DNA of 64,000 nt. Source: Ancylobacter oerskovii (GTDB taxonomy: Bacteria > Pseudomonadota > Alphaproteobacteria > Rhizobiales > Xanthobacteraceae). Position numbers and translations under genes: made by a program. Shown piece after piece: positions 9,837 through 35,150 of this stretch. The stretch lies in NCBI RefSeq assembly GCF_018390555.1, contig NZ_JAHBGB010000002.1, positions 496,001 through 560,000 of the forward strand, read 5' to 3'. Every line of letters starts with the position of its first letter. Within the stretch, counting starts at the first letter, position 1. Under the pieces are notes generated by a model. It worked only from the letters and a program-made list of their open reading frames with translations, searched no databases and was not told the DNA's origin.

Positions 9837-9959
9837 CGGCCCCTCCCCTCTTGTGCTGTGAAACGATGCAGCGACGTGCCTCGGCCCGACGCCCGCCATG
9901 ACTTGACGCGGCGGGAGCCGGCCGGCAGAACCGCGCCACCCCCTCATCGAGGAAGCCCG

Positions 9960-10703
9960 ATGCCGCGCCCCTCCTTCTTCCGCCTCGCCCGGATCGCCGC
10001 CGTCGCCGCCCCCCTGCTGGCCTGCGCCGCGCCGGCCCTCGCCATTGTCGGCGGCCGCCCGGCGGACGAGGCGACGAAGGCGCAGACGGCGCTCATCGTC
10101 TCGACGCGGGGCGCCTCCTGCACCGGCGTCGTCGTCGCCCCGCAGGTGCTGCTCACCGCGGCGCATTGCGTGCAGCCCTCGGCGAACTATGCGGCGGTGG
10201 TGTTCGAGGCGTCCGGCCCGCGCCTCGTCGAGGCGAGCCGCATCGCGCTGCATCCGCGCTTCGACCCTGCCTCCTTCGAGACCCGCCGGCCGACGCCGGA
10301 CCTCGCTTTGGTGAAGCTCTCGGCGCCGCTGCCCGGCGTGCGCCCGGCGCAGCTGTCGAGCGAGCCGGCGCTGCCGGCCCGCCGCACCGCCTTCACCCTC
10401 GCCGGCTACGGCGTGACGAAGGACGGCGACGGCAAGTCGGCCGGCACGCTGCGCGTGGTGAGCCTGCCGAGCATCGGCACCACCGGCGGCATCATGATCC
10501 GCCTCTCCGATGGCGCGGCCGCCGGCGGCTGCACCGGCGACAGCGGCGGCCCGGTCTTCCTCGACGGCACGGTGGCCGGGATCATCGGCTGGTCGACGGC
10601 GGCCGGCGGCGCGCGCGGCTGCGGCGGCGTCACCGGCGCGACGCTGGTCGGTCCCCAGCGCGCCTGGGTCGATGCCACCGCGCGGAGCATGGGCGCGCAG
10701 TGA
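9960..10703 (+). CDS. secreted trypsin-like serine protease inside the GTA cluster
   Basis: A 247-residue S1 family protease. A signal peptide (basic PSFFRLARIAA, hydrophobic core, ALA at 26-28) is followed immediately by IVGG at 29-32. The catalytic triad is His69 (LLTAAHC), Asp114 (PDLALVKL) and Ser195 (CTGDSGGP). Signal cleavage after Ala28 would create the free Ile-Val-Gly-Gly N-terminus that activates trypsin-fold enzymes, so no propeptide is evident. The residue six before the Ser is Gly, arguing against Arg/Lys specificity. The gene is on the opposite strand to the surrounding GTA genes and is not part of the known GTA set, so it looks like an insertion. Confidence 0.9.
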   Translation: MPRPSFFRLARIAAVAAPLLACAAPALAIVGGRPADEATKAQTALIVSTRGASCTGVVVAPQVLLTAAHCVQPSANYAAVVFEASGPRLVEASRIALHPRFDPASFETRRPTPDLALVKLSAPLPGVRPAQLSSEPALPARRTAFTLAGYGVTKDGDGKSAGTLRVVSLPSIGTTGGIMIRLSDGAAAGGCTGDSGGPVFLDGTVAGIIGWSTAAGGARGCGGVTGATLVGPQRAWVDATARSMGAQ

Positions 10704-15546: not shown

Positions 15547-16902
15547 TCAGACGCGGCGCACCCGCGGCGCCGCTTCCCCCGGTCCCAGCGCCAGCGCGGT
15601 GATCGCCCACACCAGCGCGTCGAGCCTGTCGGGCGAGCGCCCGCCCGACAGGCCGTCCGGCCCGAAGTCGCAGAGCTCGTCCTCCAGCGCCGGGAAGGTG
15701 CCGGCGTGGCGCACCCGGCCGCGCTCGTAGAGCGCCGCCACCGGCTCGGCGCGCAGCCACTTGCCGCGCGTCGCCCGTACCTCGGCCACCGGCAGGCCGG
15801 GATCGAGGCCGGCGAGGATGGTGCGCACCATCTCCCCGCCCTGGTTCACCTCCACCACCACCCGGTCGGCGGCGAGCTTGTGGAACAGAGCCACCACCCG
15901 TGCCCCCCAGGCGCCCGGCGTCAGGCCCTGCGCGCTCTCGTCGGCGAGCACATGCACCAGCCCCTCGCCGTCGAGCCCGGCGGCGACGATGCCGCAGGCA
16001 TCCGCCCCCTTGCGCGAGGAGGCCGGCGGGTCGACCGCCACCACGATGCGGGTGAGCGCCGGCGCCGCCTCCTCCCGGGCGGTCTCGATCCCCGCCCGGT
16101 TCCACAGCGCGTCGGCGCGGTCCTCGATCAGCTCGCCCTCCAGCTCCTGCCGGCCGAGCCGCGTGCCGGCATAGCGGGAGACCACCGCCTCCAGGAAGGT
16201 CGGCGCCAGATGCGCGGCGTTCTCCGCCGTGCCCATCCGCGTGACCGCGGTCGTCGGATCGGCGATGAGCCGGCGCATCAATTGGGTGGCGCGGGGCGTC
16301 GTCGTCACCATCTGGCGCGGCCGGTCGCCGAGGCGCAGGCCGAATTGCAGCATGTCGAAGCTCGCCTGCGCATAGCGCCACTTGGCGAGCTCGTCGCACC
16401 AGGCGGCGTCGAATTGCGGCCCGCGCAGGCTTTCCGGGTCGTCGGCGGAAAAGCCCTGGGCGATCGCCCCGTTCGGCCATTCGAGCCGCCGTCGCGTCGG
16501 CTCCCAGCGCGGGCGCTCCGCGCGGGGATGGATGGCGAGCAGGCCGGAGACGCCCTCCACCATCACCTCGCGCACATCGGCGAAGGTCTCCGCCACCAGG
16601 GCGATCCGGCCCACCGGCCGGGCGGAAAATCCCGGCGTGCCGAGCGCCAGCCCGCGCACCCATTCGGCGCCGGCGCGGGTCTTGCCGGCGCCGCGCCCGC
16701 CCATCACCAGCCAGGTGGTCCAGTCGCCGCCGCCCTGCGCGGCAGCGGGAGGCAGCTGCGCCGGCCGCGCCAGCAGGCTCCAGCAGTGCAGCAGCCAGTG
16801 CGAGACGCCGGGGCTCAGCCCGGCGACCGCTGCGTCAAGCCGCCCGCTCCGCCAGCACGCGCTCAAGAGCTTCCGCAAGCTCGCGTCGGTAGGCGTCGGC
16901 AT
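15547..16902 (-). CDS. terminase large subunit (RcGTA g2-like)
   Basis: A 451-residue terminase. The ATPase has Walker A VMGGRGAGKTRAGAEW (about 67-82) and an acidic Walker-B-like WCDELAKWRYA. The RNase-H-like nuclease has an Asp in RIVVAVDPPASS, a second in VVVEVNQGGEM and a C-terminal DRLDALVWAITAL. Together with portal it packages DNA into the capsid. In RcGTA packaging is headful of host DNA without sequence specificity; the same is inferred here. The ATG at 16902 overlaps the small terminase gene by 68 bp; TTG codons a little downstream could also serve. Confidence 0.94.
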   Translation of the reverse strand: MPTPTDASLRKLLSACWRSGRLDAAVAGLSPGVSHWLLHCWSLLARPAQLPPAAAQGGGDWTTWLVMGGRGAGKTRAGAEWVRGLALGTPGFSARPVGRIALVAETFADVREVMVEGVSGLLAIHPRAERPRWEPTRRRLEWPNGAIAQGFSADDPESLRGPQFDAAWCDELAKWRYAQASFDMLQFGLRLGDRPRQMVTTTPRATQLMRRLIADPTTAVTRMGTAENAAHLAPTFLEAVVSRYAGTRLGRQELEGELIEDRADALWNRAGIETAREEAAPALTRIVVAVDPPASSRKGADACGIVAAGLDGEGLVHVLADESAQGLTPGAWGARVVALFHKLAADRVVVEVNQGGEMVRTILAGLDPGLPVAEVRATRGKWLRAEPVAALYERGRVRHAGTFPALEDELCDFGPDGLSGGRSPDRLDALVWAITALALGPGEAAPRVRRV

Positions 16903-17389
16903 TGCGGAACACGTCGTCATGGGCGCCCTCGTCCCCGGCATCCTCGTTGGCGTCGCGGGAGATGGCGGCGAGCTCGCGCATCGCCCGCACCAGTATGGCG
17001 AGGGTGCGCGCCGCCCGCTCGGCATCGGCGCCGCTGCGGCCGGCATGCAGCCCGGCGCGGGCCAGCAGCCGCTCCACGGCGGCGAGCTCGCCCTCCATCC
17101 GCGCCACCAGCCGGGCGATGAGCAGCCGGCGCGACACCGGCCCGTCCGCCTCCGTGGCGACGGCCGCCGCCGCCGCCGGCTCCGGTGCTCCCGGTTCCGG
17201 CCCCGGCCCCATCAGGGCCAGCCGGTCCTTGCGGCGCCTCCAGCCCCATTGGCCGATGCGGACGCTCAGCGTCGAGCGGCTGATGCCGAGCAGATCGGCA
17301 ATGTGCTGGTTCGACACGCGGGTATGTTCGTAGAGGCGGCGGGCTTCCTCGATCGCCTCGGGCGGGACGTCGCGCTTGGGTATGGTCAT
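16835..17389 (-). CDS. terminase small subunit-like HTH protein (RcGTA g1 position)
   Basis: A 184-residue protein with an N-terminal helix-turn-helix (VSNQHIADLLGISRSTLSVR at about 25-44, then GWRRRKDRLAL), a Pro/Ala-rich linker (60-80) and a long charged helical C-terminal half. It is the first gene of the cluster and overlaps the large terminase. RcGTA g1 has been shown to be the TerS. The HTH, size and position here agree with that role, but the sequence family is loosely conserved. The ATG at 17389 is downstream of an intrinsic terminator in the leader. Confidence 0.8.
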   Translation of the reverse strand: MTIPKRDVPPEAIEEARRLYEHTRVSNQHIADLLGISRSTLSVRIGQWGWRRRKDRLALMGPGPEPGAPEPAAAAAVATEADGPVSRRLLIARLVARMEGELAAVERLLARAGLHAGRSGADAERAARTLAILVRAMRELAAISRDANEDAGDEGAHDDVFRNADAYRRELAEALERVLAERAA

Positions 17390-17429: not shown

Positions 17430-17455
17430 AAAAAAGCCGGCCTTACCGGCCGGCT
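17430..17455 (-). terminator. intrinsic terminator in the GTA leader
   Basis: On the minus strand AGCCGGC C (17455-17448), loop GGTAA and GGCCGGCT (17442-17435) form an 8-bp stem with a 5-base loop, followed by T6 (17435-17430). It lies 40 bp before the g1 ATG in the same orientation, and the stop codon of a leader ORF sits in its loop. That arrangement is typical of transcription attenuators, though function is inferred. Confidence 0.8.
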
Positions 17456-17511
17456 GACGACTGCGGCGTCCCCTGCCGGCCCCGCCGGCTTCGGACGCAA
17501 TTGTGGAGCAT
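17443..17511 (-). CDS. candidate leaderless leader peptide (22 aa) before the GTA cluster
   Basis: The sequence ATG CTC CAC AAT ... CGG TAA encodes MLHNCVRSRRGRQGTPQSSA plus Gly-Arg, a short basic peptide. The ATG starts only 7 bases after the putative -10 hexamer, so it would be at or very near +1, that is, leaderless. The TAA falls in the loop of the downstream terminator hairpin. The arrangement mimics attenuation leaders. There is no independent evidence that the ORF is translated. Confidence 0.4.
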   Translation of the reverse strand: MLHNCVRSRRGRQGTPQSSAGR

Positions 17512-17517
17512 GGCCAG

Positions 17518-17546
17518 AACCTACCGGAGCAGCGCGACGCTGTCAA
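17518..17546 (-). promoter_or_regulatory. sigma-70-like promoter for the GTA cluster
   Basis: On the minus strand a perfect TTGACA (-35, 17546-17541) and TAGGTT (-10, 17523-17518) are separated by 17 bp. The region just upstream (17547-17580) is AT-richer than its surroundings. It is the only good promoter seen upstream of the first GTA gene. The predicted transcript starts near 17511. Confidence 0.65.
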
Positions 17547-17659
17547 GGCATATATTCCTACACGTCTGGATTTTATCAGAACCCGCACTCGCCCGATGAT
17601 CGCATTGCCGGGCATGCCGCCTTGCTATATTCATCCATGCATAGCTTTCGAGGTGCCGC

Positions 17660-18175
17660 ATGCCGCCTTTCCTCCGCCGCCTGCGCCGGGCCGGCTGCCT
17701 TGCCGCCACGCTCGCCATGCTCTCGGCGACGGCGGTGCCGGCGCAGGATCTGCGCCTGTCCGCCCCGGAAGCCGGCACCCGCATGCTGGCGCCGGACGCG
17801 CTGCGCGCCCTGCCGGCGGTAACGCTGGAGACGAGCTTCCTCACCTCGCGCGGCGAGGAGACCGGGCGCTTCACCGGCGCCCGCCTGTGGGACGTGCTCA
17901 CGGCCGCCGGCCTCGTCGATCCGAAGGATCATCACGGCATCGCCCGCAGCGCGGTGCTGGTCACCGCCCGCGACGGCTATGCCGCCCTGCTCGGCCTCGG
18001 CGAGCTTGCCCCGGATCTCGAAGCCAAGGCCGTGCTGGTCGCCTATGAGCGCGACGGCGCCGCCCTCCCTGAGGACAGGCAACCCCGCCTGGTGATACCC
18101 GGCGACCGTCGCGGTTCGCGGGCGGTGTTCGCCATCGCCCGCATCGACATCCTCAAACCGGAGTCCCCGAAATGA
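17660..18175 (+). CDS. secreted SUOX-fold-like protein lacking the cofactor cysteine
   Basis: A 171-residue protein with a signal peptide (RRLRRAGCLAATLAMLSATA, cleavage near VPAQ). The mature part resembles a minimal oxidoreductase molybdopterin-binding (SUOX) domain: GRFTGARLWDVLTAAGLVD, SAVLVTARDGYAALLGLGEL, and LPEDRQPRLVIPGDRRGSRA before a final beta strand IARIDIL. Family enzymes bind Mo through a Cys, but the mature part here has none. It overlaps the next gene, a molybdopterin-binding Mop protein, by 4 bp. This suggests a non-catalytic or carrier role in periplasmic molybdenum biology (inference). Confidence 0.75.
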   Translation: MPPFLRRLRRAGCLAATLAMLSATAVPAQDLRLSAPEAGTRMLAPDALRALPAVTLETSFLTSRGEETGRFTGARLWDVLTAAGLVDPKDHHGIARSAVLVTARDGYAALLGLGELAPDLEAKAVLVAYERDGAALPEDRQPRLVIPGDRRGSRAVFAIARIDILKPESPK

Positions 18176-32791: not shown

Positions 32792-33220
32792 ATGGCCATG
32801 ACCATCGACCACATCATCGACGATTTCGAGCTGCTCGACAGCTGGGACGACCGCTATCGCTACCTGATCGAGCTCGGCCGCAAGCTGCCGCCCTTCCCGG
32901 AGGACGAGCGCGGCGACGCCACCAAGGTGCAGGGCTGCGCCAGCCAGGTGTGGCTGGTGAGCCGCCCGGCGGAGGGCAGCGACGGCCCGCGCCTCGCCTT
33001 CATCGGCGATTCCGACGCCCATATCGTGCGCGGGCTCATCGCCATCCTGCTGGCGCTCTATTCCGGCCGCTCCGCCCGCGACATCCTCGCCGTCGATCCC
33101 GCCGCCACCTTCGATCGCATCGGCCTGCGCGAGCATCTCACCCCGCAGCGCTCCAACGGGCTGCGCTCCATGGTGGAGCGCATCCGCGCCGATGCCCGCG
33201 AGGCGCTAGCCGCCGTCTGA
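32792..33220 (+). CDS. sufE: SufE family sulfur acceptor protein
   Basis: A 142-residue SufE protein. SufE accepts persulfide sulfur from the SufS cysteine desulfurase for Fe-S assembly. The active Cys is Cys49 in ATKVQGCASQVWLV, within the typical DDRYRYLIELGRKLPPFPED framework, and the C-terminal SNGLRSMVERIRADA is also conserved. No suf operon is nearby, as is common for SufE in alphaproteobacteria. Its end overlaps the convergent DUF6456 gene by 15 bp. Confidence 0.93.
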   Translation: MAMTIDHIIDDFELLDSWDDRYRYLIELGRKLPPFPEDERGDATKVQGCASQVWLVSRPAEGSDGPRLAFIGDSDAHIVRGLIAILLALYSGRSARDILAVDPAATFDRIGLREHLTPQRSNGLRSMVERIRADAREALAAV

Positions 33221-33775
33221 CCGCTCCGGCTGCGCCTCCGCCCTCCAGTGCCGCATGGGGCCGCGCGCCGGCCCCTTCAGCTCGCGCGACAGGCCGTAAT
33301 GGCGCGCCAGCCGGTCGAGGCCGAGGCCGAGCACCACCTTGCCGGCGCGCGCGGGCCATCCCCTCTCCTGCTCCACCGTCTCCAGCCCCTTCAGGAAGCA
33401 GCACACGTCGAGCAGCGTGCCGGAGAATTCCGGCCCGACCGCCTCCATCGCCCGGTCCACCCGCTGCCGGGCGGCGAGCCGCATCTCCGGCATGTCGAGC
33501 CCGGTGCGGGCGGCATGGCGGGCGGGCGCCCGGCCGCCGCCGCTCCAGTCCGCGGTGGTGCGGGGCATCATCTGCGCCCGGGTGAAATCGGCCCGCAACC
33601 TTTCCCCGGCCATGAGCTGCATCGCGTCGATGAAGCAGCGCCCGTCGCGGCCGCGCCGGCGCGCCAGCCAGACGAGCGGGCTTTCGGTGAGGTCCACCTC
33701 CACCCAGTTCCGCTGGCCGTCGATCACGATCTCCAGGCGCTCGACGATACGCCCCGCCCTGCGCTCATCCGCCAT
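33206..33775 (-). CDS. DUF6456 domain protein
   Basis: A 189-residue basic protein of the DUF6456 family: NWVEVDLTESPLVWLARRRG, DGRCFIDAMQLMAGERLRAD, FTRAQMMPRTTADWSGGGR, and LDVCCFLKGLETVEQERGWP with KVVLGLGLDRLARHYGL at the C-terminus. The domain is frequent in Rhizobiales and lies here immediately downstream of a DnaA domain-IV-like protein (11-bp overlap of coding regions). Such pairs suggest a DNA-binding regulatory unit, but no function is known. Confidence 0.82.
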   Translation of the reverse strand: MADERRAGRIVERLEIVIDGQRNWVEVDLTESPLVWLARRRGRDGRCFIDAMQLMAGERLRADFTRAQMMPRTTADWSGGGRAPARHAARTGLDMPEMRLAARQRVDRAMEAVGPEFSGTLLDVCCFLKGLETVEQERGWPARAGKVVLGLGLDRLARHYGLSRELKGPARGPMRHWRAEAQPERSDGG

Positions 33776-34614: not shown

Positions 34615-35034
34615 TCAGCGGGCGCCGCGCCGGCGCTGCTGGCCGAGCCCCATCTGCTTGGCGAGCTCGGAGCGGGCGGCGGCATAGTTCGGCGCCACCA
34701 TCGGGTAATCCGCCGGCAGGCCCCACTTCTCGCGATACTGCTCCGGCGTCATGCCATACTGGGTCCGCAGGTGCCGCTTGAGCGACTTGAACTTCTTGCC
34801 GTCCTCGAGACAGACGAGGAAATCCGGCGCGATCGACCTCTTCACCGACACCGCCGGCTTCAACGGCTCGGGCGCCGCGTCCTCGACCACCTTGCCGAGG
34901 GACTGCAACGCCGCATGCACGTCGCCGATCAGCGCCGGCAGATCGTTCGACATCACCGCATTGTTGCTCACATAAGCGGAGACGATGTCTGCGGCGAGTT
35001 CAATATATTTCTCGATATCAGTATTTTCGCTCAT
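34615..35034 (-). CDS. mucR: MucR/Ros family transcriptional regulator
   Basis: A 139-residue Ros/MucR regulator. The N-terminal half ([20 protein letters not shown]) and the finger region ([20 protein letters not shown], then [20 protein letters not shown] and [20 protein letters not shown]) are diagnostic. The first Cys of the Ros finger is present, but Asp replaces the second metal-binding residue (CLED rather than CLxC). This substitution is known in MucR homologues that fold without, or with altered, zinc. MucR controls exopolysaccharide, motility and cell-cycle genes in rhizobia. Upstream DNA carries a promoter and palindrome (see adjacent entries). Confidence 0.93.
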
Positions 35035-35053
35035 GGGTCGTTCTTTTCCGCCA

Positions 35054-35076
35054 GGTCGACAGAATAACCGTCGACC
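35054..35076. promoter_or_regulatory. inverted repeat in the mucR leader
   Basis: GGTCGAC (35054-35060), 9 bp, GTCGACC (35070-35076) is a perfect 7-bp palindrome 20 bp upstream of the mucR start and within the predicted transcript. MucR is autorepressed in several rhizobia, so an operator is plausible, though the GC-rich arms differ from the AT-rich sites usually reported. Confidence 0.45.
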
Positions 35077-35150
35077 AACCATCCGCCGCAACGTCGCCCC
35101 GAGGACAAATCCGAACGGGGATCAGCAGCCATATGCGTTTCTACCCTTTT

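Follow-up and report, generated by a model that had tools for sequence, protein, structure and literature searches.

The 64,000-nucleotide stretch of Ancylobacter oerskovii DNA that was analysed (hereafter the window) carries a gene transfer agent (GTA) cluster of roughly 17 kb, in which the RcGTA-type structural genes for the large terminase (TerL), the portal, the prohead protease (S78), the capsid, GTA_TIM and Rcc01698_C are present. When the small terminase (TerS), the product of the first gene, was submitted to domain searches, Pfam gave only HTH_23, below the cut-off, and NCBIfam gave no match. A gene for a trypsin-like protease (9858-10703, plus strand) is located on the opposite strand within the cluster, beside the capsid gene. 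Elsewhere in the window, gafY, whose product bears a DnaA-like helix-turn-helix, adjoins gafZ, which encodes a DUF6456 protein, as in GafYZ-controlled clusters (Table 1). The putative start codon of gafZ was picked by its overlap with gafY; every NCBIfam match of the GafY-like protein was below the cut-off, and PF20057, the profile that identified the GafZ-like protein, matched only Caulobacter among 14 control genomes. A ROS/MUCR regulator gene (34615-35091, minus strand) is found upstream of gafYZ. GTA production kills the producer cell, and the control region described below may bear on how this production stays off in most cells.

Upstream of the cluster, the initial annotation had described a promoter, an ATG, 22 codons and a hairpin with T6, and this unit is present base for base on the minus strand. 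TTGACA and TAGGTT are separated by a 17-nt spacer, the ATG (17511-17509, minus strand) comes six bases past TAGGTT, and the frame ends with a TAA (17445-17443, minus strand) in the loop of a hairpin of 8 bp (17455-17435, minus strand), which runs into the T6 at 17435-17430. From the end of T6 to the small terminase ATG (17389) there are 40 bp, and the leader is 122 nt long. The adjacent gene is divergent (start at 17660, plus strand) and therefore no other gene's transcript needs a terminator at 17430..17455. A strict sigma-70 scan did not call a promoter at the locus because TAGGTT fits TATAAT poorly. Terminator-like sites numbered 3 in 12 kb compared to 3.6 in shuffled sequences, the one at the locus being the richest in G-C pairs, and the fold of the 85-nt leader had a z of -2.15, with 6 of 200 shuffles as good. 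Hairpin counts are thus not above chance, and it is conservation that decides whether the unit is real.

Table 1. Features of the GTA control region and of the associated genes in the window.
Feature	Position	Strand	Basis
Large terminase	15547..17046	-	Terminase_6N + Terminase_6C
Small terminase, first GTA gene	16835..17389	-	Position before TerL; homologues at the same place
Predicted intrinsic terminator AGCCGGCC-GGTAA-GGCCGGCT + T6, +57 to +82	17430..17455	-	
22-codon frame with stop, MLHNCVRSRRGRQGTPQSSAGR	17443..17511	-	Judged no functional leader peptide
Start site predicted by spacing (A 17511), with the conserved initial transcribed region, +1 to +18	17494..17511	-	
-10 hexamer TAGGTT	17518..17523	-	Sequence reading; column counts
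Dyad CAGCGTCGCGCTG, consensus CAGCGTnACGCTG, -31 to -19, candidate GafZ-binding element	17530..17542	-	
-35 hexamer TTGACA	17541..17546	-	Direct sequence reading
Upstream box TAGGAATATATGCC, -49 to -36, consensus TAGGAaaaTAnTCC	17547..17560	-	Column counts; alignment A1
GafZ-like protein, DUF6456	33206..33772	-	PF20057, E 7.2e-50
GafY-like protein, DnaA C-terminal helix-turn-helix	33765..34118	-	PF08299, E 2.2e-9

A 261-base query taken from the locus matched 37 of 61 genomes, among them 28 of the 30 genomes of the genus, its own genome counted; the matching bases lie chiefly in the promoter and at the start of the transcript. Among the first 30 loci, TerL lies downstream in all 30 and TerS in 27; these 27 all belong to the genus and comprise all genus loci fetched. 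Column counts showed that conservation spans -49 to +18, the conserved columns being, in order, TAGGAaaaTAnTCC, TTGACA, GCGTnACGCTG, GGTAGnTT and then ATGCTCCACAAnTGCGTC from +1. The first of these, the upstream box before the -35, is a candidate UP-like element or activator site; directly 5' of the -35, it has GGA/TCC symmetry. The exact core pattern was found in 65 stretches of the species-genome collection, under titles that name Ancylobacter, Xanthobacter, Methylopila, Phreatobacter, Methyloceanibacter and Nitrobacter or designate several bins without a genus name. These exact-pattern loci match the core by construction, and only the flanks of the logo are informative for them; beyond the first 30 loci, the logo and alignment A1 (51 of the 53 references listed, hand-picked) are limited to loci followed by TerS or TerL. 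The initial annotation had proposed searching for the same leader in relatives: the promoter core proved to be kept there, the leader terminator is predicted in most loci of the genus and in half of the wider loci described below, and the ORF is not conserved.

The core was then sought with a sequence-only model of 67 positions, which detected it in 144 of the 297 genomes sampled in the order and in 74 of 122 genera, making it usable as a marker for GTA promoters. In this same draw of 297 genomes, TerL was found in 219 and GafZ in 226. The core-bearing genomes nearly all carry these genes, a GafZ homologue being present in 142 of the 144 and TerL in 138. Among the matches listed for both, 75 of 81 genomes have their best core 5' of TerL, on the strand of TerL and at most 3.3 kb away; the six misses have TerL on another contig (G303, G047, G252 and G155), a match far from TerL (G177) or a best match beyond TerL (G051). 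These elements are therefore conserved and associated with GTA and gafZ genes. Model and profile searches also agreed on eight genomes of one genus of the same family, in which the core, TerL and GafZ are all absent. Four contigs of a viral collection (L106-L109) carry the core as well. A phage origin of the core was considered and rejected, as a GTA-type TerL follows downstream in 4/4; these contigs are probably GTA pieces filed as viruses.

The leader was further compared over 70 wider loci (L110-L179), composed of the 30 best model matches and of 40 chosen to spread over families. This set overlaps the first one by two genus loci and some others, includes two genomes without TerL (G239 and G314), favours consensus-like cores and has uncertain start sites in the low-scoring loci L165, L172, L175, L176 and L178. 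TTGACA is present in 66/70 of them, a number to be read with the fact that the model used to find the loci favours TTGACA.

The initial annotation had argued that, with a terminator placed before the first gene of the cluster, expression would depend on read-through or antitermination, and the terminator on which this argument rests is predicted well beyond the window. When we scanned for a hairpin followed by a T-tract, 24 of the 27 genus loci (those of the first 30 with a TerS match) gave a leader terminator, compared to 5.7 expected from shuffled leaders and to 9 of 365 random windows of the same length, and the sequence of its stem and loop varies among these loci. Within the wider set, a terminator occurs within +220 in 35 of 70 loci, versus 23 of 345 random windows, and ends by +130 in 28 of 70; in other families the terminators are of unrelated sequence and often start at +14 to +25. 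The leader terminator is enriched, though non-universal, over the wider loci. None was found within +220 in the 10 loci of group f35 g44, to which Methylopila sequences belong; the terminator may lie further downstream there, as in Caulobacter. As read from the sequence, the predicted terminator lies between the promoter and the first gene, which is the Q/AlpA-type layout.

Such a promoter-terminator unit might instead produce an independent, roughly 80-nt small RNA, since a short terminated transcript is what would be expected from it, the leader fold is moderately stable and orphan copies of the core exist. We regard this as very unlikely: no Rfam 15 family scored above its gathering score (sroD reached 14.4 bits, the cut-off being 50), both the sequence past +18 and the position of the hairpin are variable, and the best core precedes TerL in the large majority of the genomes among the matches listed.

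The unit had also been likened to a leader-peptide attenuator, in which translation of the 22-codon frame chooses between terminator and read-through. The window has the frame, the stop within the hairpin loop and the terminator that this reading calls for, and the triplet at +1 is ATG in 25 of 27 genus loci (ATA in the other 2). However, in the 24 genus loci that have a hairpin, the stop overlaps with it in only 2 and is found 5' of it in 9 and 3' of it in 13; the hairpin starts are distributed at random over the frame phases (9/8/7), and L002-L004, which are close relatives, have a frame that continues beyond the hairpin. Furthermore, the frame is without a run of one amino acid, and at +1 the wider loci have ATG in 45 of 70 and another triplet in 25. 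No short ORF at a fixed place relative to the terminator was found conserved among the genus loci; the leaderless ORF does not hold as a functional unit, because its relation to the hairpin is not conserved, and we give almost no credence to the attenuator. TTGCG at +12 to +16 is still frequent among the wider loci. The +1 to +18 region is more plausibly a promoter-proximal element, which might be the place at which an antiterminator is loaded, and for a promoter-proximal pause this conserved region is only suggestive. A sigma-dependent pause within it was looked for by eye and set aside, the matches being weak. By eye too, the GCCGGC blocks of the window could form competing RNA hairpins, the first of which is found only in the closest relatives.

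A palindrome lies between the -35 and the -10, and the window matches 5 of its 6 arm positions (CAGCGTCGCGCTG). The dyad together with the -35 (TTGACAGCGTNNCGCTG) has one exact site in the genome, and with one or two mismatches 28 sites, about as many as a reversed control pattern. According to the parts of PMC11150451 on which we draw for Caulobacter crescentus, GafZ binds a near-perfect palindrome between the -35 and -10 of the GTA promoter, mutation of this palindrome leads to the loss of GafZ binding and of GTA production, and GafZ is found with polymerase, NusA, NusE and NusG across the cluster and lets polymerase past a terminator after the first gene. The initial annotation knew of no such control of a gene transfer agent, a statement that this published antitermination by GafZ renders outdated. 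GafZ would be the reader of the CAGCGTnACGCTG dyad in the window. The genome holds one core, which parallels the single target reported for GafZ in Caulobacter (same parts of PMC11150451). Both arms of the dyad are changed, to CACCG..CGGTG or nearly, in three wider loci (L155, L171 and L177), which supports recognition of the dyad as such; the right arm alone is changed to CGGTG in eight, which counts against it and exceeds the three two-arm changes.

The dyad overlaps the -35 and the spacer, a usual position for a repressor, and a consensus -35 would require holding down; the dyad could thus be the operator at which a repressor prevents initiation, with the terminator serving only to trim leaky transcription. 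We consider this explanation unlikely, as it gives no need to keep leader terminators and gafZ accompanies nearly every core. In Caulobacter, moreover, the palindrome at the same place is required for GafZ binding, and the repressor RogA targets gafYZ (passages of PMC11150451).

We therefore consider it likely that the GTA promoter is followed by an antitermination leader of the Q/AlpA type. Transcription would start at or near 17511 from the consensus -35 promoter and, without GafZ, most polymerase complexes would halt at the hairpin about 80 nt on, before the first GTA gene. Once GafYZ is made, GafZ would bind the CAGCGTnACGCTG dyad between the -35 and the -10 and be handed to the polymerase early in transcription; the polymerase so modified would get past the terminator in the leader, and those further on, and enter the cluster. 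Termination at the hairpin in the cell, promoter activity in the absence of GafZ and loading within the conserved +1 to +18 stretch are our inferences. The core points to the likely loading place of a poorly understood antiterminator. Counting against this reading, a leader terminator was found in only 35 of the 70 wider loci, the core was not detected, with strict filters, in 84 of 226 GafZ genomes and 81 of 219 TerL genomes, and the dyad is unlike the GCGCCCG-CTGGCGC of Caulobacter.

Under lambda Q, a terminator is passed by the polymerase. The Q late promoter is alike in its DNA recruitment element and in loading at a promoter-proximal pause (parts of PMC7171158), whereas GafZ is reported to be without similarity to known antiterminators (parts of PMC11150451). 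Closer in layout is AlpA of Pseudomonas aeruginosa, as described in parts of PMC7969949: at alpBCDE the element also lies between the -35 and -10, an intrinsic terminator is immediately 5' of the first gene, and the lysis genes are on in a subset of cells; however, the AlpA motif, GGGACGN5GGTA, has no dyad, and both protein and operon are others. Another close system is the Caulobacter promoter PgtaT, which shares with the window an RcGTA-type cluster, separate gafY and gafZ genes, a palindrome between the -35 and -10 and a terminator to be passed (parts of PMC11150451). The two differ in the -35, degenerate in PgtaT (AATCAT) versus TTGACA here, in the start codon, at +251 versus after a leader of 122 nt, and in the terminator, the one studied in Caulobacter lying after the first gene and the one here before it. 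In Rhodobacter capsulatus, the GafZ-homologous C-terminal part of GafA binds a fragment spanning the -35, the -10 and the start site, but the GafY and GafZ parts are fused in this protein; the main text of PMC9638019, the source of these statements, contains no match to terminator, palindrom or inverted repeat.

If a consensus -35 needs no activator, this would fit the observation that the Caulobacter promoter, given a near-consensus -35, is active without GafYZ, at about one sixth of its activity (parts of PMC11150451). The comparison suggests that GTA control may have shifted here from initiation to elongation. GafZ or GafY may nevertheless act on initiation too, since GafY and IHF are both required in Caulobacter, where expression also falls about fourfold on loss of GafZ when the cluster terminator is absent (same source, in part). 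GTA antitermination as such is already known from Caulobacter, and PMC13236601 cites a work whose title names antitermination for the GTA of Bartonella; what is new is that the -35 is consensus, that the dyad differs, that a terminator precedes the first gene and that the core is spread so widely over the order. Our literature search returned no title on a GTA leader and no papers for gene transfer agent with Ancylobacter. With a conserved, searchable core and a terminator ahead of the genes, it becomes testable whether the switch works by antitermination well beyond one Caulobacter promoter.

Phreatobacter-type genomes carry the core up to 17 times, and many of these copies are off GTA genes, which again counts against the antitermination reading. 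From one of them, G262, 14 non-GTA copies were fetched (L180-L193) and 10 were examined by Pfam: in all 10 the next gene is ordinary and convergent, so a transcript from such a copy would be antisense to the 3' end of that gene. It is a tentative proposal, which we hold to be rather doubtful, that the GTA decision is made at elongation in the order, with the consensus promoter firing in every cell to give a short dead-end RNA and polymerase entering the cluster only when GafZ is loaded at the dyad, and, jointly, that the cores copied many times between convergent genes in Phreatobacter-type genomes form a GafZ-dependent antisense set. Multiple cores were also seen in the groups f23 g70 (G243, G104, G139 and G170) and f36 g45 (G072 and G148), with 5 to 12 promoter-model matches per genome. 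Further copies off GTA genes are L054/L068, L062/L082 and L064/L078, some of which look alike by eye in two genomes.
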